Virus record (IMG/VR): IMGVR_UViG_3300044626_000114
Coordinates: 1 to 29,162 of that record
Reading direction: 5' to 3' (one strand)
Origin: a virus
Length of the DNA stretch: 29,162 nucleotides
How positions within the stretch are numbered: the stretch's first letter is position 1; every line of letters begins with the position of its first letter. This document shows positions 6,149 through 29,162 of the stretch, piece after piece. The notes beneath the pieces are model-generated. The model was not told the origin of the DNA. It saw nothing but the letters and a program-made list of their open reading frames with translations, and did no database searches. Position numbers and translations under genes: made by a program.

Positions 6149-6312
6149 TGGTTACAGTTGAAGAAATGATAGCTCTCGTACAGGACTACATCTACGAGAA
6201 GAAAAAAGTCAGGGTGGCTATCCATCTAAGATACCACCCTTTCTTTATACATTCAGATCTTAGCAAACTTAACTATTGTTATGGTATTGCTCTTGATTAC
6301 TTTAAAATTTGA
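6148..6312 (+). CDS. Small ORF, 54 aa, last gene of + operon
   Basis: ATG 6148 overlaps the phosphoesterase stop (TAATG), suggesting coupled translation. The 54-residue product (MVTVEEMIALVQDYIYEKKK, then a basic middle, then LNYCYGIALDYFKI) is protein-like, with amphipathic helices at both ends. It runs 16 bases into the 3' end of the opposing 2657-residue gene. A strong hairpin (6211-6240) lies inside it, so either the terminator is within coding sequence or the ORF is fortuitous. I lean towards real because of the overlapping start and the sensible composition. Confidence 0.55.
   Translation: MVTVEEMIALVQDYIYEKKKVRVAIHLRYHPFFIHSDLSKLNYCYGIALDYFKI
6211..6240. terminator. Bidirectional intrinsic terminator at convergent junction
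   Basis: AGGGTGG at 6211-6217 pairs with CCACCCT at 6234-6240, extended inside by TATC/GATA after a bulged C. The + strand continues TTCTTTAT, and the - strand continues GACTTTTTTCTTC, so both convergent operons have a GC stem followed by a T-run. It lies between the + strand replication operon and the - strand virion operon, 57 bases beyond the stop of the 2657-residue gene. Confidence 0.65.
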
Positions 6313-9300
6313 TCGGCTGTTTGGCCAGCTTTAATTCTATCTATATCTGACAATGTTGGCTCACTTACAGTCTTTAATAGCTTAACATATTCCTTTCCTT
6401 GAGATTCTGTCAGACCTCCATTTCTATTAATAAATTCTAGTTCATCTATAGCTGTACTAGCTTCTTTTTTCTGTTTTATCAAATCTGATTCCCATCCAGA
6501 AACTTTTCTTCCTATCTCTTTTTCAACGTCAGTAATTCTATTATACTGATTCTCTGTTATACCTCTCTTCTTAACTCTATTAACAACATTTCTAGATATC
6601 TGACCAACATCTTTTGGTAATACTCCCATAGAATATAATACCATTGGAGCAATTGTGTAACCAACTATCTTACGATCTTTTTCATTAAGATATTTTTTAG
6701 TTACTCTTCCTTGGTATTCATCTTCAAATTCACCAGTTGTAGATAATTTAGATATATCAATAAGTTCTTTATAAGTATCTCCAGCAATTCCGATCATACC
6801 ATATTTACGTCCAGCAAAATCGTCTGTAAATACCTGATACTCGCTTTCCTTTTTGAGATTTTCAATGAATGCTTCTTTCTCTCTATCATTCATTTCTTCC
6901 TTACCATTAAGAACGAGGGCTTTGTTTTTATCTTCAACTGCTTTTTTAATATCAGCTTCATCAAGCATTGGTATTTCAGCAAGAGCTTTATTTAATCCAT
7001 AAGTAACTAAATCGTCAGTAATTGGAAGAGGTGAAACAATATCATTAACGATACTCTTTATTGGGTATTTTGTAGCGTTAATCATTTTTTTCTTTTTTGC
7101 TTCTTCATCTTCATCATCTCCCATTAATGATGCAGCTATTATATCGTACAATCTTCTTATACCAAAACCAATCAATTGGTATGTAGCTAGCTCGACTGAT
7201 AATCCACCAAGAGATCTTGCAGCTGTTATCTTATCTTCTGTTGTAGATGTTTTACTATATAATGTTGTGATGTCATTATACATCCTTGCCTTTTGGTTTA
7301 AGATAAATGATGCAAATGGAAGCACAACTTTTCTAGCTATTTTTCTAAATGAATCTTCGCTAGCTAAGAACTCACCTGCTAACATTGGATCAGATATGTT
7401 CTGCTGTCTATCAACCATCATCTGAGCGTAGTTAACTGCATCCATATCGGCTTCATGTGTATTCCAATCTATATCTGTAGATATTCCTCTATTTTTTAAA
7501 TCTTGTATATAGTATGAAATAAATGATGATCGAGCAACCCAAACATCTGGTTTAGATAAGAATTGTTTTAAATACCATTGATTTAATTTTGCAATATTCT
7601 TTAATGCATTGTCAAATGTTTCTCCTTTCTTATCTATTCTACTATCAATTGATTCAACTGTTGATTGTGATTCAAGACCTCGATTTGAAATTGGAGCACC
7701 AGTTCTATTAATCCAATCATTCATTTCTGAATTTACAGTTATAAACCTACCTGCATTTATAACAGTGTTAGCGATTACAGGAACAGTTTGCATTACGGCT
7801 TGATTTAAACCACCCAATGCTTTTCCAACACCTATAGATGTTATAAAGTTTGTTACTTTATTTACTGAGTCCCATGTATCTCTTGGTGCAATCTTTTTAC
7901 CTTTTGCCCTTCTGATATAATTGTTAATTCTTCTTGTTATAAGAACTCTGTCGTCAGATTCAGTAAATAATTTTTTAAATCCTTTTGAGTTAACAAAACC
8001 ATCAACTTGTCTGATAGCACTTGCTGTATTTATATCAACTAATGCGGCTTGAAGTGAATTTGAGTTATTTGTATCAAAATCAAGACTAACATATCTACCA
8101 TCAGGCATAACCTTTGGCCTTGTCGTTTCCATCAATACTCCAGTCTTATTTTTATCTGTGTAGTCAATACTAATAGAGAAAGCTCCATTTCTTTCAATTA
8201 AATCTGAATCAAATTGAACTGATTCACCTGATAATTTTTTATACCTATCTGGAGTATAATTTAAATCACTTCCAAGTTGTGTATTGTAAACTGACAAGCT
8301 TATATCTGATAATTCTTTATAGCTTTTAGCCCATTGATTAATCCACCAATTAACAGCTTCTCTATTACTTTTGCTGGCACTAGAATTAATTATATCAATA
8401 TCACCTTCATTAACATTAAGTTTGTCGAAGATCTCTTGATACATTTCTCCCATTTTCACTTCTTTTGAATCTCCATTTTCAATCAAAGTTTGGATACTTT
8501 GCTTAATCATATCAATCCTTCTATTCAACTCAGCTTTCATTTCAGCTTCTGTTCCAATAAGATTTCTATTTAAGAATGCAAGCATACCTCTTTCGTATAC
8601 ATTTTTAGCATCCATAAAACCTTTTGAATTATAAAAATCTTGTTTTGAATAATCGTCAAGTATTTTATTGTGTTGATTATTTGCTTTATTTACACCATTA
8701 ATTAATTTTGATAGACCTGCCATCTCCATAATTTTTGTAGCATTTCTAACACCATTAAACAGTTTTTCCATTAATAATGGAAAAGAATAAAGTTCGTCAC
8801 TATAGAATCTACCTATTGTTTTATTCAATAATAATTTAATAGGTCTAGCCTTAATGCCTTTGTTAACTAATTTGTTAACATTTTTAACCCCCTCATAGTT
8901 ACTAACAACTGCTTCAAGTCCACTTGTTATATTGTTATTTAAGAAGTTATCTATTGCCTCAACAACCTTTATAGCATCCCTTACTGACATATCAGCTATG
9001 TCTATATCCATAACTTTTTTCATCAGTTCAATGGCATTGTTATCGATATCCAACTCTTCCCCAGTAAATGGATCAATTTTTGTTCTGATAATCGTTTCAA
9101 GTATTGGCTTCATTAAGTTTAATTTGCCATCTAGGAATGACTTGATATATCTTTCTTTTTCAACTGAATCCATTTTGGTAGTAGGATCATTCAAAGAATT
9201 TATTATATCTTGCATTTCTTTCAATGACATATCTTTCGATATAACACCATCAGAAACTAATGAATTATATACAGCAAGTATCTCATCCTTTAGAACATTT

Positions 9301-12300
9301 TCTTGTCTTTCAATCTCATTATTTGTGTATTCAGAGACCTCAGCAATATTTGCAGCTTCCTTCATTACAACATCAAGTCCTTTTACTCGTGATGGTTTAA
9401 CAGCATTCTTGACTTTCTCAGCAATTTCTAGATAGGCATCAATGTCCTCAACCATTGACGGATCGATCTTTGCAAACTCCTTAGCCATACCAACTACCTC
9501 AGCTTGATTGTCAGTTTTTAATGCCTTACGGATAGATTTTCTTAATGCAAACGCGCCATCTAATGTTTCTTGATAGTCAGCTCGATTAAATACTTTAGCA
9601 GCATAATCTAAAAACCTCTCAACCATTACTGGATTGTCTAGATTTAGGTTACTTATTCTTTTAATCAATACGCCAGCCTGAGCGGTTTTTATCTTGCCAG
9701 TTTTAACCATATTGCTGATAGCAACAGAAAGGTTTTTTCTCTTGGTATTTAAGTCAACTTTAGCTTCACGAGCAGCTCTTACCTCCAATTTAATTTGAGT
9801 AATCATTGCTTTATAATCATCCTTTATAATAACTTTAGTTATTTTTCTTTTAGATAAAGCCTTAGCCTCTTTTGCCTCTTTACTTATTTTTACTTTTGGT
9901 TGTTTTTCACCAGTAATACGTTCTCTTGTTTTACGAGTTTGAAAGTCTGACATACTATATAGTGAGTCAGTAATTCGTTTCTCATCAACATTGTTTTTCT
10001 TAGCATAATCTTTAATAGCTTGCTCAAGAGTCATTCCTGCTTGAACAGATACTTTTAATGCTTTAATGATTAACTTCATTGCAGCAACTGGTAAGTTTAT
10101 TCCAAGCGTTTCTTTACCAAACTTGTCAAGATCATCCTCTAATTTGTCAAGGAATGATTTAACTTTCTGTAGATTTGTTTTGTCAGTTACATCTAAGTCT
10201 TTTACTTCTTCGATTGATTGAGCCTCTTCAACACCTTCTTCAACTTGCTTACCACGTTCTGCGGCAATACTTTCAAGATTTTCTTTGATTTTTCCATAAT
10301 CACTTATTAATTCACTTATTGTATTATTTAATATTGCTTCTTTACTTGTGTCCTCTCCAAATATATTTTCAACGCCTACATTTTCATTATAGTTAGTTAG
10401 GAAGTTTTTAAATACAGTCGGCTTCTTTGTGTCCAACAATAAAGCCATGCTCATTTCACCAATAGTATATTGATTCTCCTTGAACATATCATATTGAGAC
10501 AAATAATCCTCTACAGTTATTTTAGCAGCTTTAGCTTTTTGTATAATTTGTATAGCTCCAGTTATTTCTTGAGTTAGACTATCATTTCCTTTTGCAGCAT
10601 TCTGCATCAATCCTACAACATTTTTAAGTATTACTTTTTTAATGTCGCCCATTCCAGGAACAGACAACTCTCTAATACTATCTTCATTTAAACTTGCAGC
10701 CATTACAACACCTTCAAGAAAGCTTACACCATCTGGAGTCGCTACATTTTTATCTATATATCTAGGAATTTCAACCGTTTGAATCAAGCCTTCTTGAATT
10801 AAAATATCAATAGCTTGTTTCATATTTTTAGGATCAGACGTAACATCACTTGGAACTTCAACTCCTTCATATAAACCAGCTAATGATCTTTTGGCTCTAT
10901 CTGAAATTCTTTTACTGATAGCAACAGCTCTTTGCAAAGGACCTTGTGCTTTCTTTTCTTGCTTGTTAAACATTGCCATAGTCTTTGTGTTAAATGGCAA
11001 GTTTTCATCTACCTCAAAAACAAGTGTTGGGTTCTCAATAGAATTAACATCTTCTTCAGTTAGACCATACATATCCGCTTGGTCTCTTAAAGCCTGTAAA
11101 TAATCTTGATCGGTTTTATTTTGAGCAGCTAATTGTCTACTCATAGTTCTATTATTCCCATCATAGACAATACCTTCTTTAGAAACAATAGGAGTTTGTG
11201 TAACAGCTCTTTCGTCAATATTTTGAGCTATATCAATTACTTGTGATTGAGCAGGCTTGTCAGTTTCATAATCTCTGTCATTTATTGTTTTACCTTCCTT
11301 ATTTTGAGGAAATTCTTCATTTTTACCAAATGTATTTGGGTTGTGACTTGGAATTAATTCACTAGCTGGAACAATCTTAAATGTACCTCTAATTTTTGTT
11401 CCATCAGGAGCAGTACGAGTAATTGCTCTACCTTTCTTTTGACTAACACCAGACTTATATTCCTGACTACCTACAGACCTACCGATCTCATCGGTTGGTA
11501 GAGTTACTTCTCCAACAGGAACTACTTCTTCTTGGACTGCGGTTTGACCTTCTTCGGCAGCGACTTTAGGTTCTGCTTTGGGTTCTCCTTGCGCCACTTC
11601 TCCGCCAACTGCGGTTTCTGGCTGTACAGGAATTTCACCTGTTGTTTCGACTTGAACGGCATTTTCACTTATTGTTTTTAGTTCATTATTAATCTCATTA
11701 ATCCTATTTGATATGGGAGTAACAAGAGCAGGGTCTTTCCCTTCCATTTGCTTACGCAAATTTTCTCTTTCGTTTATTAATTTAAAAGATGTATATCTAT
11801 CATCATTTGATAAATTATCTGGTATTTGTCTTAGGACACCTTCAGATTCTTTAAGAGAATTTAATTCTCTTTGTCCTTGATCTTTCGTTATTTCACCTGA
11901 TAAAATTCTATCTTTTATATTGAGAACAAATAAATCTTTAATGTCTTTATTGTTTATAGTATTTTCAATATTGCTTAATTGATATTTATCTAACTGCTGC
12001 TTTGCAGTTAATGTAGCTTGAGTAATTGATTGCATTCCAGCACCACCCAACAAACCAAGTAACCCAGCTTTGTTTGCTCTTTCAAATACTTCACCAAATG
12101 TTTTTGGATTCTCAAAGTATTTCTTTCCTTTTACTTGATTTAATAATTCTTTAGCACCTATTTCAGTTAACTCTTGACCTGCCTCAGTAGAGTATTCTAT
12201 TAAACCAGCACCAGTAACTTTTAAAACTTTGTTTGCAATCAATCCTTTTAGTTCTTTCTCTACAGCATTATCAATCATCTCTGCTGTAGCATTTTCAGGA

Positions 12301-14270
12301 AGTCCTTTTAGTGATTTAGAGAAAACGTAATTTACTATTTTATTATTTACTGGAGATTTACTAAACATTTTAGTTAATCCATATTTTTCTAACAATGAAG
12401 TAATAGCACCTACAGATCCAGCAAGTAGCATCTTTTCACCTTCAGACACATCTTTAAATTCAGGACCATTCATTTGATCTCTAAAATTTGTGTAAGAAGA
12501 TGCATACAATCCAAGTGTAGATCCAACAGGACCTCCAGTCATAGCACCTGCTAATGCTGCACCTCCAGAGTTAGCTAAACCAAAAACAACTTGCTCAAAT
12601 GCATTTCTTTTTTCAGATGATAAGTATTCTTCACTAAAAGATTCAGGTGCAAATTGAGATGTTATAATTCCCTTTGCAGATCCTCTTGCATATTCATCTC
12701 CTTCAACAATAATTCTAGCTGCTTGCTCAAAACCTTGGACAAATGAAAACGCAGTTCCTGATAAAATATTTCCCCTTTCTGATTCAACTATAAAAGCATT
12801 ACCTGCTATATTTTTTACATCAGATTGCTCATTAGATATGTTTCTGTAGTCGTCTTTAAGTGACTTTATATTGTTATCAATTTCTTCCTTTCTTTTATTT
12901 ATTTTAGGTAGGTAGTTTACATTATAATCTTCTTCTGTTATTAAACCTTTTTTAAATGACTCATTTACGTCTTGCTCATATTTATTTAATTCAGAAGCTT
13001 CTCTTTTTATATCTTCTTTCTTTAAAATAGTTTTAGTTATATTGTCATTTATTCTGTCTATTTCATATTTATCAAAAGAAGCAGCTGATCTATATTTATC
13101 TTTTGACATATAGTCAAGCTTTTTCTCTCTTTCTTTATCAAGTTGAGGTAACAACTCATCAAGTTCTTTTTGAAGAAATATTACATTGTATGGATTTGTT
13201 TTCTTTTCAGATTCAATTCTATCTCTTAGATCATTTACTTGTTTTTGTTTTTTGATGTACTCATCATTAACTATATTTACTTCTAAGAAACCCTTAAGTA
13301 ATTTTGCTTCTTCGTTATCTCTATCAGTTGTCCAGTTGTCAAGATTAATAAATTTACTTTCGCCAGTTACATTATTTTTAATCTTTATACCATCATAACC
13401 TCTTCCAGCAGGTTCTATTTCAAGGTATTCGTATTTCTTTAACTTACCTTGTAATTTTGATATTACCTCATCTTCGTTTGAACCTACTAAGTCAGTAGTA
13501 ACAGTATTTAATATATCGTTGAGATCATTTTCTTTTTGAACTTTCTCAATATCTTCTTGATATTTACCACTTTTAACATATTCAAAGTGAGCCTTCTCAA
13601 ATTCTTTCTCTTGTTCTTTATCAGCTATATTAAATAATTTACCATCAGCAATAGCTGGTTTAAATTGTTTTAATTCTGGAGCTTTTTTAGCTATTTCTTT
13701 TTGCCTTAACTCTTCTTCTTTTTTTACTTTTTCTGGAGTTATATTATAAGCTTTTTCAATTTGTTTTTGATTAGCTAATTCATAGTTTGGTTGTACTGGA
13801 TTGCCGTTAATATCAGCAATCATCTTTGCATTTTTATTTAGGTAGTCATATCTATACTTGACATTTCCAGATTTTATTTCTTTATAATCGCCAGCACCTG
13901 TTACATCTTTATACCAAACACCTGAAACTTTTTTATAGTTTTGATTATTTTCTGGATTTGAATAAATACCATCATCTGGAGATGAATATTCCGAACGCTT
14001 CTTTCGAACCATTTCTTGTGTAACCGATGAAACAGTTCCATTTTTTGGTGTTGATTGTGAAACCTCTTTTTTTTTTACTAAACCTAATCGATTTACAAAA
14101 ACATTATAATCTTTAGGAGCATCAAAACCATTATTCAATAAATATGAGTGATATTTTTTAGCGTTATTCTCATCGCTCAAAGCGTTAGCAAATGCATCAT
14201 AATTTGGTGCAACATCAGCATTATTTGCTTTTAAATAATCGTAATACTTCTTTAAATTATCGTTAGGCAT
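6297..14270 (-). CDS. Giant polyvalent protein (2657 aa), probable ejected virion protein
   Basis: The last and largest gene of the virion operon. Residues 1-65 hold two copies of a ~30-residue repeat (KYYDYLKANNADVAPNYDAF / KYHSYLLNNGFDAPKDYNVF). Residues ~215-520 are charged coiled coil; ~565-630 are Gly/Ala-rich and hydrophobic (AALAGAMTGGPVGSTLGLY); ~870-923 form a Glu/Pro linker. At ~965-1230 lies a DdrB/ParB-superfamily-like domain with VPASELIPSHNPNTFG, TPIVSKEGIVYDGNNRTMSR and FNKQEKKAQGP. The last 900 residues resemble 'large polyvalent protein' modules, including a YTPDRY motif and a membrane-like stretch near 2357-2383. Polyvalent proteins are known to be co-injected with DNA to act early on the host. 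Position after the tail genes fits a T7 gp16-like internal protein. No lytic transglycosylase, RNA polymerase DxDGD or P-loop motif is visible. ATG 14270 follows a 16-base gap. Confidence 0.8.
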   Translation of the reverse strand: MPNDNLKKYYDYLKANNADVAPNYDAFANALSDENNAKKYHSYLLNNGFDAPKDYNVFVNRLGLVKKKEVSQSTPKNGTVSSVTQEMVRKKRSEYSSPDDGIYSNPENNQNYKKVSGVWYKDVTGAGDYKEIKSGNVKYRYDYLNKNAKMIADINGNPVQPNYELANQKQIEKAYNITPEKVKKEEELRQKEIAKKAPELKQFKPAIADGKLFNIADKEQEKEFEKAHFEYVKSGKYQEDIEKVQKENDLNDILNTVTTDLVGSNEDEVISKLQGKLKKYEYLEIEPAGRGYDGIKIKNNVTGESKFINLDNWTTDRDNEEAKLLKGFLEVNIVNDEYIKKQKQVNDLRDRIESEKKTNPYNVIFLQKELDELLPQLDKEREKKLDYMSKDKYRSAASFDKYEIDRINDNITKTILKKEDIKREASELNKYEQDVNESFKKGLITEEDYNVNYLPKINKRKEEIDNNIKSLKDDYRNISNEQSDVKNIAGNAFIVESERGNILSGTAFSFVQGFEQAARIIVEGDEYARGSAKGIITSQFAPESFSEEYLSSEKRNAFEQVVFGLANSGGAALAGAMTGGPVGSTLGLYASSYTNFRDQMNGPEFKDVSEGEKMLLAGSVGAITSLLEKYGLTKMFSKSPVNNKIVNYVFSKSLKGLPENATAEMIDNAVEKELKGLIANKVLKVTGAGLIEYSTEAGQELTEIGAKELLNQVKGKKYFENPKTFGEVFERANKAGLLGLLGGAGMQSITQATLTAKQQLDKYQLSNIENTINNKDIKDLFVLNIKDRILSGEITKDQGQRELNSLKESEGVLRQIPDNLSNDDRYTSFKLINERENLRKQMEGKDPALVTPISNRINEINNELKTISENAVQVETTGEIPVQPETAVGGEVAQGEPKAEPKVAAEEGQTAVQEEVVPVGEVTLPTDEIGRSVGSQEYKSGVSQKKGRAITRTAPDGTKIRGTFKIVPASELIPSHNPNTFGKNEEFPQNKEGKTINDRDYETDKPAQSQVIDIAQNIDERAVTQTPIVSKEGIVYDGNNRTMSRQLAAQNKTDQDYLQALRDQADMYGLTEEDVNSIENPTLVFEVDENLPFNTKTMAMFNKQEKKAQGPLQRAVAISKRISDRAKRSLAGLYEGVEVPSDVTSDPKNMKQAIDILIQEGLIQTVEIPRYIDKNVATPDGVSFLEGVVMAASLNEDSIRELSVPGMGDIKKVILKNVVGLMQNAAKGNDSLTQEITGAIQIIQKAKAAKITVEDYLSQYDMFKENQYTIGEMSMALLLDTKKPTVFKNFLTNYNENVGVENIFGEDTSKEAILNNTISELISDYGKIKENLESIAAERGKQVEEGVEEAQSIEEVKDLDVTDKTNLQKVKSFLDKLEDDLDKFGKETLGINLPVAAMKLIIKALKVSVQAGMTLEQAIKDYAKKNNVDEKRITDSLYSMSDFQTRKTRERITGEKQPKVKISKEAKEAKALSKRKITKVIIKDDYKAMITQIKLEVRAAREAKVDLNTKRKNLSVAISNMVKTGKIKTAQAGVLIKRISNLNLDNPVMVERFLDYAAKVFNRADYQETLDGAFALRKSIRKALKTDNQAEVVGMAKEFAKIDPSMVEDIDAYLEIAEKVKNAVKPSRVKGLDVVMKEAANIAEVSEYTNNEIERQENVLKDEILAVYNSLVSDGVISKDMSLKEMQDIINSLNDPTTKMDSVEKERYIKSFLDGKLNLMKPILETIIRTKIDPFTGEELDIDNNAIELMKKVMDIDIADMSVRDAIKVVEAIDNFLNNNITSGLEAVVSNYEGVKNVNKLVNKGIKARPIKLLLNKTIGRFYSDELYSFPLLMEKLFNGVRNATKIMEMAGLSKLINGVNKANNQHNKILDDYSKQDFYNSKGFMDAKNVYERGMLAFLNRNLIGTEAEMKAELNRRIDMIKQSIQTLIENGDSKEVKMGEMYQEIFDKLNVNEGDIDIINSSASKSNREAVNWWINQWAKSYKELSDISLSVYNTQLGSDLNYTPDRYKKLSGESVQFDSDLIERNGAFSISIDYTDKNKTGVLMETTRPKVMPDGRYVSLDFDTNNSNSLQAALVDINTASAIRQVDGFVNSKGFKKLFTESDDRVLITRRINNYIRRAKGKKIAPRDTWDSVNKVTNFITSIGVGKALGGLNQAVMQTVPVIANTVINAGRFITVNSEMNDWINRTGAPISNRGLESQSTVESIDSRIDKKGETFDNALKNIAKLNQWYLKQFLSKPDVWVARSSFISYYIQDLKNRGISTDIDWNTHEADMDAVNYAQMMVDRQQNISDPMLAGEFLASEDSFRKIARKVVLPFASFILNQKARMYNDITTLYSKTSTTEDKITAARSLGGLSVELATYQLIGFGIRRLYDIIAASLMGDDEDEEAKKKKMINATKYPIKSIVNDIVSPLPITDDLVTYGLNKALAEIPMLDEADIKKAVEDKNKALVLNGKEEMNDREKEAFIENLKKESEYQVFTDDFAGRKYGMIGIAGDTYKELIDISKLSTTGEFEDEYQGRVTKKYLNEKDRKIVGYTIAPMVLYSMGVLPKDVGQISRNVVNRVKKRGITENQYNRITDVEKEIGRKVSGWESDLIKQKKEASTAIDELEFINRNGGLTESQGKEYVKLLKTVSEPTLSDIDRIKAGQTADQILK

Positions 14271-14286
14271 GTTTATATATTTTTAA

Positions 14287-15753
14287 TTACCACTGAATAC
14301 CAGAGCTTCCTTTATTACTACCACTTGATTGACCTGATCTAGCCATTTTCCTAGCTTCTTCCCAATTTAAAGATGCTTTTGCTGGTTCTCCATTATATAC
14401 AAATTGAGCTAAATCTTTTGGTGTCTTAGCAAAAAATACAACTTCTCTTCCTTTAGAAACTTGAATTCCACCATTCTTAGGTTTATATGTATAACCTTGT
14501 TTTAAACCACCAAAATCAGGTCCACTAGATGATTTTACCCAACTACCACTTGATATTGTTGCATCAGGATCAGCACCCCAAGCTCTTAATGTGGCTTTAT
14601 ATCCAGCTATCATAGCTGCATTTTCTTGGCTTTTATCTTCACTTTTTCGGCCTCCGCCTCCGCCTCCACCTCCGCCTCCTCTATCAGGCTCATCTAGTTC
14701 AACCTTTCTTTCTAGTCTTGAGTCAATAGCGTCCAATACAGTTTGCTTTGCATCTTCAATTTGTTTATTTGTCAAATTTGGCTGATAAACACCTTGATCA
14801 TCTTGAGCAAGCAATATAAACTTTTCTTTCTCAGATTCAATAAACTTATCTAAAGCATCACCACTTAAAGCAGGTTTTCCAAGCTGTTTATTAAGTTCAT
14901 TTTCTTTAGATACTCTGTCTTGAAGTTTTGAATTTAAATCATCATTATTATAATAAAAATCGTAATTTCCGTCAGTATTATCTTTTAGAATACTGGTGGT
15001 AGCTCTAGGATTGCTTAATATACCATTAGCCAAATCAAGTCTTGCTCTTTGTATAGCAGGATTTTGCAATGCGTCTGTTATAGTCTTAGTACCTAATTCA
15101 ATAGTCCAATCTTCCCAACCTTTTGTTTTCTCATCGACAATAGTTGATAAATCAACTTTGTTATCAATTATATTCCCTGGTTGAGATATAGACCTTAAAT
15201 CCATTATAGTAGATGGATTAAATAAACCATCTTGGCCTAGTTGACCAATGATAAAGTTACCATTGTTAGGATCTACTTGAGTTGCTTTATTTCTTAAATC
15301 TCCTAACTGAGCAAGTCTATTGTTCAGTTCTAACTCAAGACCTGAGCCTATACCTTCCTGTTGTCTTTTTAATGCTTCTTGCATTTGTTGGTCATAACTT
15401 TTTGCAGTATTAGCAAATGTAGACCAACTATCCATCAAGTTGTTTATTCTATTTTTATATTCAAGAGGTGTAATTTGACCAGCTTTTAATAAACGATTCC
15501 ATTCCATCATTGATTCTCTACCTTGATTTGATCCAGATAGAATCAATTGATTTAATGTCTGACTTTTACCTAGTTCTGTATTTTGCAATATTTTACTATT
15601 ATCATATTGCAATTTATCAAGTAGTTGTTTTTCAGCTTCTCTTGCAGCACCTATACCTTGTATAGTAGTAACTAAACCACCAGTAAGCTTTGCCCAATCT
15701 ATTGGATTACTTGCTGGTATAAATCCTGTATATTCGTTGTATCTATTTGACAT
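14287..15753 (-). CDS. Putative internal virion / ejection protein, 488 aa
   Basis: A Gln/Asn-rich, mostly helical protein between a small helical protein and the giant polyvalent protein. This is the position of internal core proteins in podoviruses such as T7 (gp14-gp15-gp16), so I infer that it is packaged and ejected with DNA. ATG 15753 is used; the frame can start earlier at TTG 15774, but that overlaps the upstream stop. Near residue 360 there is a run of about ten glycines between DEPDR and RKSEDK, a flexible linker separating the helical N-terminal part from a small C-terminal globular region (TLRAWGADPDATISSGSW...GYTYKPKNGGIQVSKG). No enzyme motif is visible. Confidence 0.65.
   Translation of the reverse strand: MSNRYNEYTGFIPASNPIDWAKLTGGLVTTIQGIGAAREAEKQLLDKLQYDNSKILQNTELGKSQTLNQLILSGSNQGRESMMEWNRLLKAGQITPLEYKNRINNLMDSWSTFANTAKSYDQQMQEALKRQQEGIGSGLELELNNRLAQLGDLRNKATQVDPNNGNFIIGQLGQDGLFNPSTIMDLRSISQPGNIIDNKVDLSTIVDEKTKGWEDWTIELGTKTITDALQNPAIQRARLDLANGILSNPRATTSILKDNTDGNYDFYYNNDDLNSKLQDRVSKENELNKQLGKPALSGDALDKFIESEKEKFILLAQDDQGVYQPNLTNKQIEDAKQTVLDAIDSRLERKVELDEPDRGGGGGGGGGGRKSEDKSQENAAMIAGYKATLRAWGADPDATISSGSWVKSSSGPDFGGLKQGYTYKPKNGGIQVSKGREVVFFAKTPKDLAQFVYNGEPAKASLNWEEARKMARSGQSSGSNKGSSGIQW
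14649..14682 (-). repeat. GGN trinucleotide repeat encoding poly-Gly
   Basis: A run of near-identical CCTCCG/CCTCCA units on the + strand codes for about ten consecutive glycines on the - strand. It is the most GC-rich short stretch in an AT-rich window and is prone to slippage in units of three bases, which would alter linker length without a frameshift. Confidence 0.75.
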
Positions 15754-15763
15754 AATAACTTTA

Positions 15764-16375
15764 TTATTTTGCAAATATTTTACTTAAGTCTGTTGGACTT
15801 AATGTCCCATCATCTACGCCTTTATTTCCGTATAAACCAACAGCTTTAGATCCACTAGTCAAAGCAGTTCCTGCCGAACTAAACATGCCTTCAATTGCAG
15901 CATTCTTTCTTTCTTCAGCAGCTTGTCTTTCCATTTGAGCACTTTGCATTTCATTTAATCCAATCATAAGATTACGTTCTTGCTGTCTAGCTTGAATACC
16001 TTGCTCTGCCTCAGCTTGTGCCATATCTCTTTGATACTGTGCTTGACCTGCCTGAGCAGCTAAATTTAAAGCTTGTTCGTTTCCAGCTTGAAGTACATTT
16101 CCTACTCCACCAATAACACCCTCAGCACCTGCACCCTGCAATGATTGCATTGCCTGTGTTGTTGCTTGAGCTTGTGATTGTTGCGCCAATTCAAATCCTA
16201 AGGTAGGGACTTGAACTTGCTTGAATGCATTAAACTCCTTGATGTTTTTTAATTCACCTGCCGCTTTAGCTGCCGCCTGTGATGCCGTTTTCATATCTTT
16301 ATTGGCTTTGATAGCTTGAGCTGCACTCAAACCTAAACCACCTAAAGCTACTATCGTTCCTGTTACTGCTGCCAT
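15764..16375 (-). CDS. Putative internal virion protein, 203 aa
   Basis: ATG 16375 gives MAAVTGTIVALGGLGLSAAQ, a hydrophobic N-terminal segment, followed by a long Ala/Gln-rich helical region (AQQSQAQATTQAMQSLQGAG...QEQGIQ-like repeats) and a short Gly-rich tail. This composition matches small internal core or ejection proteins such as the T7 gp14 type, which insert in the host envelope during DNA entry. The open frame upstream to 16447 lies inside the GNAT gene and is discarded. One base separates this ATG from the upstream stop, and its stop is 11 bases before the next ATG. The function is inferred from composition and order. Confidence 0.65.
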   Translation of the reverse strand: MAAVTGTIVALGGLGLSAAQAIKANKDMKTASQAAAKAAGELKNIKEFNAFKQVQVPTLGFELAQQSQAQATTQAMQSLQGAGAEGVIGGVGNVLQAGNEQALNLAAQAGQAQYQRDMAQAEAEQGIQARQQERNLMIGLNEMQSAQMERQAAEERKNAAIEGMFSSAGTALTSGSKAVGLYGNKGVDDGTLSPTDLSKIFAK

Positions 16376-16376
16376 G

Positions 16377-16778
16377 TTATAATATTTTAACCATTTCTTG
16401 ACAATTGCTATCTCCTTTAATAAAGCCACAATTGCTATATCTGTCAATTAGACTTTTACTCTTTAGTGATGTATAAATATATTTAAAATCACCTGCATCT
16501 TTAACTAATTCAATCAATACATTTATAAGAAATTCAAGAGCCTCATGCCTATCATTTTCTTTGTATTGAAAGTTAGATACTATAAATTCAATCCATGCTG
16601 CCTTTGAGTTCGTAAAGTAAACAAATCCAGCACATATCTCAACACCATCCTTAGACACCATCACCCCACCTGTACCATTCTCTGGTAACATATCAGCAGG
16701 AGGAGGAGTCCATCTCCAATCTCTCCACCACGATGACAATGTCTCATAGTCATTGCCATTCAATAGTCGAACTTCCAT
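16377..16778 (-). CDS. GNAT-like acetyltransferase-fold protein, 133 aa
   Basis: A small protein with the strand-helix pattern of the GNAT fold: an N-terminal MEVRLLNGNDYETLSSWW, a central strand GVMVSKDGVEICAGFVYFT, then AWIEFIVSN, a helix, and a C-terminal RYSNCGFIKGD. The WWRDWRWTPPPADMLPENG segment is a pattern I recall from phage proteins placed among tail genes. The classic Q/RxxGxG/A acetyl-CoA loop is not clear: the expected place reads NFQYKENDRHEAL, so the protein may be structural or have lost activity. ATG 16778 is preferred to TTG 16784. Its role could be modifying a host or virion target; this is uncertain. Confidence 0.65.
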   Translation of the reverse strand: MEVRLLNGNDYETLSSWWRDWRWTPPPADMLPENGTGGVMVSKDGVEICAGFVYFTNSKAAWIEFIVSNFQYKENDRHEALEFLINVLIELVKDAGDFKYIYTSLKSKSLIDRYSNCGFIKGDSNCQEMVKIL

Positions 16779-24796: not shown

Positions 24797-26194
24797 TTAT
24801 CCTTTGAAGATAAAGAAGTTGTTTGCACCAAGTGTACAAAGAGCTCTTTCAGACAAGAAGTTAACCTCCATTGCATCAAGATCGCTAGTTGCAGCACCAC
24901 CAGCAGAACCAGTCATCCAAGTTTTGTAACGTCTGTTTTCAGCTTCAGAAGCTCGGTAACGAACGTGTAAGAATGGACGTTTTGCGTTTTTACCAAGAAC
25001 TTGGTCATAAACTGTAGTTGTACCAGCAGGAACTAAAACTCCGTTTACAGCTCCACCAACTAGACCACCACGAAGAGTAGCATCGTTAAGATATTTCCAG
25101 TCAGTTTTGTAGAACTCATAACCTCTACGGAATCCTGTGAATCCAAGATTCAAAGCCATTTGCTCGCTGTTATCGAATAATCCATAAGATGTACCACCAA
25201 CTCCGTAAGAGTTTTGAGCAGCTAACATATCATCGATATCGAAAGAGAACTGACGATTCAAGAATAATGCATTCTCAGCGATAGCTCCTTGCTTGTCAAG
25301 ACGTTGTACGATAGTATCAAAGTCAGCCAAAGCAGATGGATTACCACCAGCCCATACATTTCCTCTTGATTCGATAGAAGCAAATAAACCTTGAGTTCCT
25401 TTGTTACCAATATCACCAGTTGCAGCTATAGCACCAGAACCAGTTTCAGCAATAACACCTTCTACCATTGCCATTTCAAGATAATCTTCAAAACGTAGAC
25501 GAGTCTCGTGCTCTGATTTCAAATACCACAAATAACCAGTAGCTCCATTCTCAGTAGTTACCTCAACCCATCCGATTTGAGCCATATCAGATCCTGATAC
25601 AACATATTTATCTTTGATGATGATAGGAGATACTTCAAAAAAGCTATCTTCAGCTTCTAAAGAACCGCTCATTCCGTTAGCTCCTTTTTTGAATTCAGAA
25701 CCATAAACGAAAGCAGTAAATGTAGCTCCAGTATCACCTGCTAAGATACCACCTGCATTATAGAAAGCTACTGTAAAACGATCAGAAGCAGGTAAAGCAG
25801 TGATAATACCTTTGTAAGATGAAGATGCAGAAGCATTGTTTGATAAGAATACAGTTTGACCTATTCGGAAAACACAAGTTCCTGTACCAATGTCAAAAGT
25901 TACAGAGTCATCACCACCTGAAGCACCTACAGCTGTAACAGCAGTATACTTAGTATGTAAACGACCTTGCTCCGCCCACTTAATTAAGTCAGAGTTAGAA
26001 GGGATTTCAGCACCAACCATACGCAAGAAAGATGCGATAGATCGGTTTCCATAACGCTCAAATTCTTGCTCATAAGTATCAGGAAGATACTGATTCAAGA
26101 AATTGAAGTTAGTGATGTAGTTTGTAGGCAATGTTGCCTTAACGGAGCTAGGTGTAATATTTACACCAGGACTCGCTTGTAATGTACCAGCCAT
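24797..26194 (-). CDS. Major capsid protein, crAss-like HK97 type
   Basis: A 465-residue protein that forms the icosahedral shell. The segment FLNQYLPDTYEQEFERYGNR, then FLRMVGAEIPSNSDLIKWAEQGRLH (residues ~33-80), and the C-terminal NFLSERALCTLGANNFFIFKG are the typical edges of capsid proteins of crAss-like and related Bacteroidota phages. A 90-residue Gly/Ser/Ala/Thr-rich beta stretch (~85-170) may be an inserted surface or E-loop-like region. The order scaffold, capsid, head protein fits. ATG 26194 starts five bases after the scaffold stop with an A-rich leader. The gene has less AT-biased codon use than its neighbours by eye, consistent with high expression, and a terminator follows. Confidence 0.88.
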   Translation of the reverse strand: MAGTLQASPGVNITPSSVKATLPTNYITNFNFLNQYLPDTYEQEFERYGNRSIASFLRMVGAEIPSNSDLIKWAEQGRLHTKYTAVTAVGASGGDDSVTFDIGTGTCVFRIGQTVFLSNNASASSSYKGIITALPASDRFTVAFYNAGGILAGDTGATFTAFVYGSEFKKGANGMSGSLEAEDSFFEVSPIIIKDKYVVSGSDMAQIGWVEVTTENGATGYLWYLKSEHETRLRFEDYLEMAMVEGVIAETGSGAIAATGDIGNKGTQGLFASIESRGNVWAGGNPSALADFDTIVQRLDKQGAIAENALFLNRQFSFDIDDMLAAQNSYGVGGTSYGLFDNSEQMALNLGFTGFRRGYEFYKTDWKYLNDATLRGGLVGGAVNGVLVPAGTTTVYDQVLGKNAKRPFLHVRYRASEAENRRYKTWMTGSAGGAATSDLDAMEVNFLSERALCTLGANNFFIFKG

Positions 26195-26199
26195 TTTTT

Positions 26200-27309
26200 C
26201 TAATTTTTGTTTTTGTTTCTAATTACTAATCTGTTGCCACGATCATCATCTATAGCTGTAACTTTGAAACCTGGAGCTGGTGTAACTTGTGTAGCTTGTC
26301 GAGTCATATCAATATTTTTTGACTCTTTAGCCACATTGTCAACCGCATCTGCCATTCCTTTCTCATAAAAGAACTTGGCAAACTTCTCTGGGTTCGAAGC
26401 CACTGCAATAGCACGATGGAAAGATTCAGCGTCCTTAAGATAACCTTCATCATTCAAAAACTTTGATACAAAGTTCTGAAGATTAGATTGCTCTTTTAGT
26501 AGATCAGGTGCTTCAGATGGTTTATAAACTAATTTCTTATTCTCATCCAAACTAAATCCGAAACCTTCGAACTTTTCAGAGAATAACTCAGAAGTTTTGT
26601 CAGCGAAATACTTTGACCTTTTTGCTTGCTCCTCCTCCGCTTGAGTCGTAGCTTGTTTATAACTCTTGTAAGCTTCGTAAGTTTCTTTTTCTTCTTGCGG
26701 AACAAAAGATTCTCTTGACTCAAGAGGAACTTTATACTGTTCTTTTAATCCGTTAAAGTACTCCTTAGCTTTAGTGAGTTCTTTTTTCTTAGCCAACTGC
26801 TTTTTCTTAATCTCTTTCTCGTCATCAAAGTCTGGATCATATCCAAACTGAGTGTCAAGATCGAATTTAATATCATCAATATCAAGATCTCTATCTTTGT
26901 TCTTGCGATATTCAAATAGCAATTGGTCCTGATCCATAGAATCATAGTCTTTATTTAATTGAATAAAGTCCTCGATACCACGACCAGTTTCTTTTTTATA
27001 CTTCAAATAGGTAGCAACCTCTGGATCTAAATCATCATTGCTTGATCTTTGCTCAAACAACTCGTCAAGATTGCTAATCTCTTTGTTATATCTTTTTCCA
27101 ATATATGAAAGAACTTTGTTGTCGTCTATCTCAATCTCTTGAGGTTCAACTGGTGTATCTATTGGTGCACTAACATCAACTTTATCAACAGGTGGCTCAT
27201 CTTGAACTTGTCCTGTTTCTTCAGCATGTTCGTCCAACAATTGCTGTTCTATCTCTGCAACTGACTTCTCCTCGAACTCAACTGCTCTTACTTTAAATTC
27301 TCCTTCCAT
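26200..27309 (-). CDS. Putative scaffolding protein, 369 aa
   Basis: A strongly charged protein (Glu/Asp/Lys-rich) with coiled-coil stretches around 160-240 (EKEIKKKQLAKKKELTKAK...) and a basic C-terminus (DDRGNRLVIRNKNKN), directly upstream of the capsid gene. Acidic N-terminus, coiled coil and a basic capsid-binding tail are the usual design of phage scaffolds, which guide capsid assembly and then leave the head. I see no protease domain. ATG 27309 is preceded by a -7 element (27325-27332) and two palindromes, so scaffold and capsid form a unit of their own. Confidence 0.75.
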   Translation of the reverse strand: MEGEFKVRAVEFEEKSVAEIEQQLLDEHAEETGQVQDEPPVDKVDVSAPIDTPVEPQEIEIDDNKVLSYIGKRYNKEISNLDELFEQRSSNDDLDPEVATYLKYKKETGRGIEDFIQLNKDYDSMDQDQLLFEYRKNKDRDLDIDDIKFDLDTQFGYDPDFDDEKEIKKKQLAKKKELTKAKEYFNGLKEQYKVPLESRESFVPQEEKETYEAYKSYKQATTQAEEEQAKRSKYFADKTSELFSEKFEGFGFSLDENKKLVYKPSEAPDLLKEQSNLQNFVSKFLNDEGYLKDAESFHRAIAVASNPEKFAKFFYEKGMADAVDNVAKESKNIDMTRQATQVTPAPGFKVTAIDDDRGNRLVIRNKNKN

Positions 27310-27324
27310 TTAATTAAATTTTTA

Positions 27325-27332
27325 CAAAGTTA
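27325..27332 (-). promoter_or_regulatory. -7 element TAACTTTG before scaffold/capsid genes
   Basis: TAACTTTGTAAAAA on the - strand fits the -7 consensus and ends 15 bases before ATG 27309. The element shares its spacing and downstream bases with that at 23534-23541. Two palindromes lie immediately upstream of it. Confidence 0.5.
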
Positions 27333-27346
27333 ATAATTATTTTTTA

Positions 27347-27401
27347 TATGCATCTGCATACTATATTATACAAATGAATCGTTTTATATGCATTTGCATA
27401 T
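27347..27401. promoter_or_regulatory. Two tandem palindromes upstream of scaffold gene
   Basis: Site A (27347-27360) is TATGCA-TC-TGCATA and site B (27386-27401) is ATATGCA-TT-TGCATAT; both are perfect palindromes around a two-base centre. They are about 40 bases apart and lie in similar TTTTATATGCA contexts. Site B touches the stop codon of the 210-residue gene. They precede the -7 element of the scaffold/capsid unit and look like operator or activator sites for a dimeric regulator of late genes. Confidence 0.6.
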
Positions 27402-27405
27402 TATG

Positions 27406-28038
27406 TTATTCATTATCATAAAACATCCTATCAGAATCCTCTGTATGCCACTTGTCATATCCCTCACAATTAAACCAAGCATTGTTTACTAAATAGTCAG
27501 GTTTAGATGGAAACTCTTTTGTAACAAAAGAAGGCTCATACCAACGCACCCTGTTATTTGGCTGCAATGCTATTTGTCCGTTCTCTAGTAATATAATATG
27601 ATGTGACTTATGCTCTAGTGGATCTTCAGCTAATGTTATGTCAGTATTTATATCATTAGAACCCCAATTAATTGTAGCATAATAGTTACCCTTATACCAT
27701 TGCCTGTCTTTCATATACACATCAACATTTGTGTCATATACATAAGACAATTGAGTTAATGTGAATCTGTAGCTAAAACAATTCCATATCTGTAAGTAAT
27801 GAAATGGTAAATCAGGATTTGGTAACTCTGGCTCAGTTAGTAATGCGTGTGATGGTAATTTATCTCTCATAACACCATTCTCAAGTAACACTTGAAATAA
27901 TGCTGCCTGCCCTGGCATACATCTCACTGAAATAATTACTCCTTGAGTAAATTCACCATGTCCCTTTTTAAATTGATACATGTATTCATTTCTAACGAAT
28001 ACCTTCAAAGGGAAAAAATTATGTTCTATATATGCCAC
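27406..28038 (-). CDS. Conserved virion-module protein, 210 aa
   Basis: A protein of unknown exact role between portal and scaffold genes. It carries an aromatic pattern (FHYLQIWNCFSYRFT, then DRQWYKGNYYATINWGSND) and the phrase EHKSHHIILLENGQIALQPNNRVRWYEPSFV, a block I recall as strongly conserved in this gene position in marine and Bacteroidota phages. It probably takes part in head assembly. It starts with GTG at 28038, which shares one base with the TAG stop of the portal gene, so translation is probably coupled. It has no signal peptide. No enzyme motif is visible. Confidence 0.75.
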   Translation of the reverse strand: MAYIEHNFFPLKVFVRNEYMYQFKKGHGEFTQGVIISVRCMPGQAALFQVLLENGVMRDKLPSHALLTEPELPNPDLPFHYLQIWNCFSYRFTLTQLSYVYDTNVDVYMKDRQWYKGNYYATINWGSNDINTDITLAEDPLEHKSHHIILLENGQIALQPNNRVRWYEPSFVTKEFPSKPDYLVNNAWFNCEGYDKWHTEDSDRMFYDNE

Positions 28039-29162
28039 TATTTAGGACTAAATGATTCTAAATCGAAGCCATCCAAAGAATCTTCACTCGATTCGAAGTT
28101 CAATGGTGGTAAGTTATTCTTTCTTTGATTAATTAATTCAGATTGTCTTGTTGCTTGAAGATCAACTCGCTTATCTTTAGCTTCTTCTTTTTTCTCTTCT
28201 CGCTTCATTAAGTTATCCGTCTCAATACCCTTTAACTGCATATTGTATTGGAATTCTTGATCCATTAATTGAGCTTTAATAGCTGCTTCAGCTTGCATTT
28301 GTTGAACAGCAAAATTCATCTCAGCCTCTCTCAACTGAATCTTAGACTGAGCTTCAAGTTGAATCAATTGAGCTTTAGATTCAGCAGCAGCTTGTTGAGA
28401 TTGAATGTTACTTTGCATTTGCATTTGGAACTGCATTTCTTGTTCTTTCTGCTTCTGCTCCATTCTCTTTCTTCTCTTCAACTTTAATAACTCATTTGCT
28501 AACTTAATATTGTTAATCATTCTAATATCAATAGCATCCTCTAAGTCGATTGTCTGTTGTTGTAATGAAACTTGAATATTTGCCTCAAGCATTTGTTTTT
28601 GTTCTTCATCTGGAGCCAACTCGATAAAGATACCAAAGTCATGCAAATAAAGATCCTTTATGTCATTAAGTATCGCAACATTATATTTACCAATCTGCAT
28701 TGCAAACTCTTCAGCAAAGTCAGAGTACTCTAATATATCAGCAACTCTTATAGATAGACATTCAGCTAATCTTTTTGTTATATTTAAACCACCTTCTAAT
28801 ATATGTCTAGTAGCTGTATTTGAATTCAATGCAGCTAGCTTCTGAACTCCAACCAAAGCGTCAGGACTAGGTGTAGACCCATCCCTTACCTCATTAATAC
28901 CAGTCACATCACGTATCATATTTAGATAGTGATTATAGTTACCTATCAATGCAGCCATTTTTGATTGACCACTATTTGAATTCAACTCTTGTATAGGAAC
29001 TCTAGCATTATTAAACTCACCATCTTGCGTGTAACTTCTACCAATAACACTACCAGTCTGAAAATATAGTTTTAAAGCGTCCTCTGGATTGTATGCTGCT
29101 CCAGTTCCTAGGTCAACCTCATTGATACCATCAGCGTCAATAAACACCCCATCAGGAACTAC
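28038..29162 (-). CDS. Portal protein, C-terminal part (5' truncated)
   Basis: The C-terminal 374 residues of the dodecameric portal through which DNA enters the head. The frame is open to the window edge, five codons beyond the first possible GTG at 29147, so the start lies outside. The stretch with RVPIQELNSNSGQSK, LIGNYNHYLNMIRDVTGINE and DGSTPSPDALVGVQKLAALNSN resembles portals of crAss-like and marine podoviruses. It is followed by a long Gln/Glu/Lys-rich coiled coil (~215-345), probably the helical barrel at the head interior. Its order before scaffold and capsid supports the call. The end overlaps the next start as TAGTG. Confidence 0.85.
   Translation of the reverse strand, partial: VVPDGVFIDADGINEVDLGTGAAYNPEDALKLYFQTGSVIGRSYTQDGEFNNARVPIQELNSNSGQSKMAALIGNYNHYLNMIRDVTGINEVRDGSTPSPDALVGVQKLAALNSNTATRHILEGGLNITKRLAECLSIRVADILEYSDFAEEFAMQIGKYNVAILNDIKDLYLHDFGIFIELAPDEEQKQMLEANIQVSLQQQTIDLEDAIDIRMINNIKLANELLKLKRRKRMEQKQKEQEMQFQMQMQSNIQSQQAAAESKAQLIQLEAQSKIQLREAEMNFAVQQMQAEAAIKAQLMDQEFQYNMQLKGIETDNLMKREEKKEEAKDKRVDLQATRQSELINQRKNNLPPLNFESSEDSLDGFDLESFSPK

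Follow-up and report, generated by a model that had tools for sequence, protein, structure and literature searches.

Giant polyvalent proteins are seen as injected arsenals of phages, and how their payloads change was hard to see before. Among the closest described systems are the phage-type polyvalent proteins, in particular DdrB of phage P1 (Iyer et al. 2017, PMC5512222), which is large and multidomain, has a late gene context and carries a DdrB-ParB domain, and gp69 of the Bcep22-like podovirus JC1 (PMC9144972), a 4515-aa DarB-like protein whose giant gene ends the virion module, which is present in virions by mass spectrometry, and for which antirestriction has been suggested. Here we compare with them the one giant gene (6297-14270, minus strand) of a viral fragment of 29,162 bases (IMG/VR record IMGVR_UViG_3300044626_000114, positions 1 to 29,162; hereafter the window). 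Judged from sequence, its 2657-aa product is a phage-type polyvalent, being large and multidomain, with domains of the polyvalent repertoire and adjoining virion genes. In our reading, which we hold with good though not full confidence, it is a giant carrier with a swappable payload, joined by a dual-coded stretch that contains a second, small gene nested in the +1 frame (11522-11662, minus strand).

The likeness to the phage-type polyvalents extends to their repertoire, in that relatives of the window protein carry MPTase, ART and GNAT domains. One difference concerns MPTase (HExxH), a domain that is frequent though not obligatory in such polyvalents and that Iyer et al. proposed to process them: neither the window cassette nor any of the three further ParB-type members of the family has it. 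Another is that a payload swap inside one carrier at fixed joints is shown here at the DNA level; the text of the earlier study mentions no linker or shuffling, and treats cassette-like recombination as no more than possible at kinase polyvalent loci (PMC5512222). JC1 differs in being a Burkholderia phage, and its likeness to the window is one of description and not of sequence comparison; the match found for the window protein in the phage collection was limited to the ParB region of one DarB-like protein, that of a Pseudoalteromonas phage.

Relatives were collected with the whole protein and with its C-terminal carrier, and are metagenomic contigs (L numbers below) or annotated phages. In 44 sequences the C-terminal part is constant, with a near-constant length of ~1170 residues, and the length upstream of it runs from ~1190 to ~2690 residues. 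Near-identical relatives, 97% identical outside the cassette, hold an unrelated cassette of metalloprotease type. Compared with L002 and L005, protein windows are 88-100% identical as far as residue ~900, then unrelated, and past ~1500 once more 80-100% identical; the DNA is 94-98% identical on both sides, with similarity ending at 11543 and returning at 9797, and the gap shows none over 1.75 kb in the window and 3.3 kb in L002. In L004, L006 and L003, the ParB cassette is 83-93% identical to that of the window and the N-terminal carriers are only ~30% identical, and the L064 contig holds a ParB cassette at 73% identity in a diverged backbone. As these alignments indicate, residues ~911-1491 (9798-11542, minus strand) are a swappable central payload bracketed by conserved carrier parts, and residues 1492-2657 (6300-9797, minus strand) are conserved carrier, not payload. 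The N-terminal carrier (residues 1-~909, 11543-14270, minus strand) includes a conserved module at ~545-750 and a conserved anchor at 781-895. Because a single clean exchange of payload within a conserved carrier is what separates near-identical phages, carrier and payload become testable apart. A reading made earlier from the letters alone (the sequence-only reading) had assigned large polyvalent-type modules to the protein; its polyvalent nature stands, but only ~911-1491 is exchangeable, and no additional payload modules make up the rest of the middle or the C-terminus.

Across 37 cassettes, Pfam identified DUF7178 (7), ART-PolyVal (5), ddrB-ParB (4), DUF3293 (3) and GNAT (1). An HExxH motif occurs in 25 of 38 cassettes and in none of the four of ParB type, a contrast for which we make no statistical claim because these four are related. 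As an observation in its own right, DUF7178 is the commonest Pfam payload domain (7/37), with E-values down to 1e-29 (L008:11093-14611 and six others).

The payload of the window is a ddrB-like ParB domain (residues 956-1084; 11019-11405, minus strand), identified by Pfam (PF18763, E 2e-12; score 47.7 bits, curated family cut-off 27.6). Proteins of the ParB/Srx fold are marked by a conserved pocket Arg and an Asp/Asn ending strand 2 (PMC5512222). The IVYDGNNR motif of the window contains the conserved Arg1041 of this pocket, and GNNR is invariant in six relatives, one of them only 29% identical. When a model of residues 940-1230 was ranked with VIA-align, the top 12 PDB entries were all ParB-N folds (ParB/Noc/KorB/PadC, Z 5.5-3.3), the first unrelated entry following at Z 2.8, although this ranking rests on a weak model (pLDDT 51); Foldseek against the PDB gave no significant match with the same model. 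A DdrB/ParB-like module had been proposed from the letters for residues 965-1230, and since the Pfam match and the top 12 structural matches are all ParB-N, a ParB fold is found there and that proposal is borne out. By analogy with what is proposed for P1 DdrB, the ParB payload most likely acts on DNA, through DNA binding, nuclease or antirestriction activity. A ddrB-ParB domain 29-30% identical also occurs in a different phage, in a 5036-aa giant protein encoded by positions 801-15908 of L065, a 132-kb contig.

The nested gene was reached through an apparent conserved linker before the cassette (NAVQ..Q..EVPVQPE...). At this 5' joint, inside the giant gene, an ATG at 11662 opens a +1-frame gene with its stop at 11522, encoding a product of 46 aa plus stop (MPFKSKQQVKFLYSQKPQLAEKWRKENPKQNLKSLPKKVKPQSKKK; sequence of the product, MPFKSKAQMKACYSQDNPKWDCKKWSKETPSKKSLPNKVKKK) with an isoelectric point of 10.6. 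Before the +1 frame was seen, a protease site, a recombination anchor and an RPE-like mobile element had been considered for the linker and were dropped; its reading as the target of a diversity-generating retroelement is contradicted by the fixed adenines at third positions and the free variation at first positions.

Within the element, host-frame third positions reach nearly 2 bits, against ~0.2 outside it, and first positions are free. This odd codon pattern is due to a second gene in the +1 frame, in which the host third positions are the second positions (the most conserved) and the host first positions are the wobble positions (the least). Among 12 diverse members, nested proteins are 65% identical on average and the host-frame peptides 42%, the nested value being higher in 63/66 pairs. 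In addition, when host-frame synonymous codons were shuffled in both partners (150 shuffles per pair), the observed nested similarity exceeded all 150 shuffles in 44/45 pairs, with a median z of 8.0. On this evidence the nested open reading frame (ORF) is conserved beyond host-frame constraint and is, in our assessment, most probably a real overlapping gene. Upstream of its ATG the sequence is A-rich at -11, -13, -14 and -3, a context favoured in Flavobacterium (PMC6847099); because the upstream regions are mostly homologous, these bases are consistent with the gene and do not count as independent evidence.

A degenerate DNA pattern for the linker matched at least 120 viral stretches, a count that is a lower bound on prevalence. 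Among the matches listed, ~50 lie in giant ORFs, ~25 in a scaffold-like gene and a further four in the 3'-terminal part of a 112-aa gene. An ATG and an open +1 frame are present at 79/80 loci among them, the exception being a chance match, and the nested ORFs have 32-61 aa (one is shorter through its contig end) and the form MPFKSK.Q.(K/R)(F/Y)L...P..A.KW......LPKKVK, hereafter MPFKS. Thirty-eight relatives, the window included, have an intact joint: 27 carry the MPFKS type, always in +1, and ten carry DUF6496, which is unrelated to it and begins at the same ATG in the same +1 frame, leaving one with neither. The DUF6496 copy of L003 scores 31.6 bits against the Pfam cut-off of 24, and two other copies fall just under it (22.6 and 22.8). 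Across 22 whole records, 14 have one MPFKS copy, five have one DUF6496 copy and none has both; exactly one nested copy was found in 13/13 records collected by the C-terminal carrier alone. Neither nested family was found in Maribacter phage Panino or in phages phi40:1 and phi46:3.

A complete small gene within another gene, in a shifted frame, is known from Rz1 in Rz of phage lambda and E in D of phiX174. The slot described here differs from these in that it takes either of two unrelated families, has two or more unrelated host genes and lies at recombination joints. The second host is a scaffold-like gene between the portal and major capsid protein (MCP) genes, as in L071:4892-6154 and ~25 similar loci (L067-L144), which hosts an MPFKS gene near its 5' end, again in +1. 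The L071 scaffold-like protein is 31% identical to that of the window and stands beside an MCP that is 51% identical; the window's own scaffold-like gene (26200-27309, minus strand), a homologue of this host gene, has no +1 ORF of the MPFKS family. In another phage type (L102, L105, L121 and L143), the 112-aa gene and the MPFKS gene overlap, at the 3' end of the former, and the MPFKS start is preceded by AAGGAG in three cases and by GAGGAG in the fourth. Stand-alone relatives are URG13095.1, a neighbour of GroES in phage 023Pt_psg01, and, in S-CBS2, an ORF that carries no annotation. In tblastn, the full nested peptide gave no match at E 0.01, and a composite peptide at E 10 recovered the elemo phages at about 1e-3.

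For the nested families themselves, DUF6496 (PF20106) and phrog_1375 are described without function. The phrog_1375 profile matches MPFKS weakly (E 0.0084-0.045 in 3/4 queries), and a sequence search of the PDB retrieved, for the nested proteins, nothing but unrelated repeat proteins, most of them designed. That one slot is filled by two unrelated families suggests that they do the same job, which offers a handle on DUF6496. The nested gene, missing from all annotations seen, shows that a conserved small protein has been overlooked by annotation in flavobacterial-type phages numbering dozens to hundreds, among them 68 sequenced Flavobacterium phage records. A nested placement of DUF6496 or phrog_1375 was not reported in the open-access literature searched. 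Tentatively, and with slightly less than even expectation, we suggest as the simplest guess that the small protein, which is basic, encoded inside a late gene, present once per genome and exchangeable for a second basic family, binds nucleic acid, in assembly or in the new host.

The joint is also where the DNA changes partners. With L022, which holds DUF6496, the window shares 73-93% identity as far as the nested ATG, after which the two are unrelated. With L002 the identity is 93-100% across the nested gene until its last codons, where relatedness stops. L004 and the window diverge in the region before about -90, and from -30 onward, nested gene and cassette included, they are 83-100% identical. 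Because these alignments break where they do, the nested gene is flanked by recombination junctions on both sides. The conserved joint may help payload cassettes recombine, or it may only mark positions at which exchange is tolerated. Whether a single-copy +1 slot in giant ejection genes, filled by MPFKS or DUF6496 in nearly every such phage and recurring in the scaffold-like gene of other phages, doubles as a joint for the exchange of injected payloads is to us an evenly balanced question.

Evidence for a virion role of the giant protein comes from its place in the genome and from fold. It is encoded by one unbroken ORF of 2657 codons that closes the virion gene module, following the tail and internal-protein genes as the sequence-only reading had it. 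At the same place in Cellulophaga phage phi40:1 lies gp101, annotated together with its two upstream neighbours as 'structural protein ... experimental MS/MS' (tandem mass spectrometry), and the elemo counterpart gp18 is likewise annotated 'structural protein'. This Elemovirus protein (KNV12_gp18, 3694 aa) is alike in locus, in structural similarity of the C-terminal carrier and in a nested MPFKS gene in +1; it differs in a carrier sequence that is almost unrecognisable and in another payload (DUF3293 and others). The AlphaFold2 model of the C-terminal carrier, all-helical and outside any Pfam family (44 C-terminal carriers gave only scattered chance matches), matches a 'structural protein' segment of elemoC with E 2.2e-9, and also matches many proteins named for polyvalent-associated domains. 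Its best PDB alignment is with chain 8vb2_A of the phiM1 ejectosome (Z 5.9, root-mean-square deviation 6.8, 244 residues), a Z that is possibly noise for helical models, and Foldseek against the PDB found nothing significant with this carrier. Direct homology of the carrier to phi40:1 gp101, to the Manatee Spring podovirus (MW202828) or to Panino was considered and dropped for want of sequence support, the elemo match being only weak. Since carrier sequence matches are weak or lacking, placement in the virion leans on synteny and fold.

By analogy, packaging and ejection of the giant protein with the genome is likely. The position is that of T7 gp16, from which it differs in that a transglycosylase or lysozyme domain was not found in the giant protein with Pfam or PHROG; an RNA polymerase domain of T7-like kind, as in the N4-type virion RNA polymerase, was not found in the same searches. 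The earlier interpretation is partly upheld: the gene has the position of an ejection protein, and the MS/MS-annotated counterpart in phi40:1 and the JC1 giant lend indirect backing to a virion location, while injection and the anti-host or genome-protection role that it suggested stay hypothetical. By sequence, a diverged N-terminal carrier with a Gly/Ala-rich module and a conserved, helical C-terminal carrier of 1.17 thousand residues bracket an exchangeable payload. In the mechanism we propose, the carriers would ensure packaging of the protein and its ejection together with the genome. The ParB payload would then act on DNA in the new host, and the small protein would be made from the late mRNA by initiation at an internal start and bind nucleic acid, while the conserved joint would help payload cassettes to recombine.

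Three other explanations have to be weighed against the reading of a carrier, a swappable payload and a dual-coded joint. The giant protein might be a late intracellular factor for host takeover or assembly, neither packaged nor injected. This would fit the lack of a lysozyme or transglycosylase domain, but we consider it unlikely, given that the gene, preceded by two internal-protein genes, is the last of the structural module, that its positional counterpart in phi40:1 is MS/MS-annotated as structural, and that a DarB-like giant was detected in JC1 particles (PMC9144972). The joint, for its part, might be no more than a linker in the giant protein or an anchor for DNA recombination, with the +1 frame open by accident and untranslated. 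Openness of the frame is indeed not significant gene by gene, and an anchor would explain why the joint coincides with recombination junctions; what it does not predict is conservation strongest at host third and weakest at host first positions, and it sits badly with a nested frame that is more conserved than its host and beats the synonymous shuffles, with an unrelated Pfam family filling the same slot and frame, and with MPFKS proteins nested in a different host gene and standing alone. We regard it as quite unlikely. An assembly artefact is the least probable of all, at only a very small chance: the contigs are all metagenomic and near-identical flanks invite mis-joins, yet the arrangements recur in independent records (one cassette in L002 and L005, the other in the window, L004, L006 and L003), the junction positions differ between pairs, and the ORFs stay open across all junctions.

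Several observations weigh against the carrier and dual-coded joint that we favour over these explanations. The open-frame test on single genes is not significant (shuffle P 0.02-0.41) and is not used as evidence here, and the giant gene holds two other ATG-initiated ORFs of at least 40 codons. L020, whose joint region differs, holds neither nested family. Sequence searches link the C-terminal carrier only weakly to elemo gp18 and at no significant level to phi40:1 gp101, and the AlphaFold2 models are moderate (pLDDT 72, carrier) and poor (pLDDT 51, ParB region). Finally, the relatives are metagenomic contigs or annotated phages that are known here from sequence alone.

Further features of the giant protein are less central to this comparison. 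Two N-terminal repeats (residues 7-33 and 38-64; 14079-14252, minus strand) are identical at 11/27 positions, in agreement with the tandem repeats noted earlier. The 'membrane-like' stretches of that reading fare less well: a Gly/Ala-rich, mildly hydrophobic stretch is present (residues 561-632; 12375-12590, minus strand), and such stretches are amphipathic, with no classical transmembrane helix found in the giant protein (highest 19-residue Kyte-Doolittle mean 1.43). The proposed single 8-kb gene is confirmed as an open ORF, with its strand, not given there, being minus. Toward the end of the cassette, the motif FGKETLGINLPVA (residues 1384-1407; 10050-10121, minus strand), of the form FGxETLGxNLPVA, is common to the window protein, its ParB-type relatives, phi40:1 gp101 and phi46:3 gp120, and is the only sequence link found to these two Cellulophaga proteins.

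The minus-strand order of the window is portal, a phrog_3704 gene, scaffold-like gene, MCP, ring/adaptor, a large tail-type protein, two internal-protein-like genes and, last, the giant gene. The internal-protein-like pair comprises an internal virion protein gene matching phrog_13764, a virion structural protein (15764-16447, minus strand), and an internal-protein-like gene that is the positional counterpart of MS/MS-detected phi40:1 gp100 (14287-15774, minus strand). The MCP shares 66% identity with that of the Manatee Spring podovirus, 57% with that of Panino, 51% with those of Elemovirus phages of Flavobacterium and 43% with those of Callevirus phages of Cellulophaga, and the sole bacterial-genome match of the C-terminal carrier is a Flavobacteriales contig from a metagenome-assembled genome. 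Because of these MCP identities and this carrier match, the phage is, on sequence criteria, a flavobacterial short-tailed phage, kin of Elemovirus and Callevirus.

Two annotations along this gene order deserve mention. The gene between portal and scaffold (27406-28038) matches phrog_3704, labelled 'ferredoxin', with E 2e-63, and the label is doubtful inside a capsid operon. In Panino (PP540027.1), the positional counterpart of the giant gene carries the annotation 'tRNA methyltransferase', and a dense tRNA array with a tmRNA (25461-28224) lies directly downstream of it.

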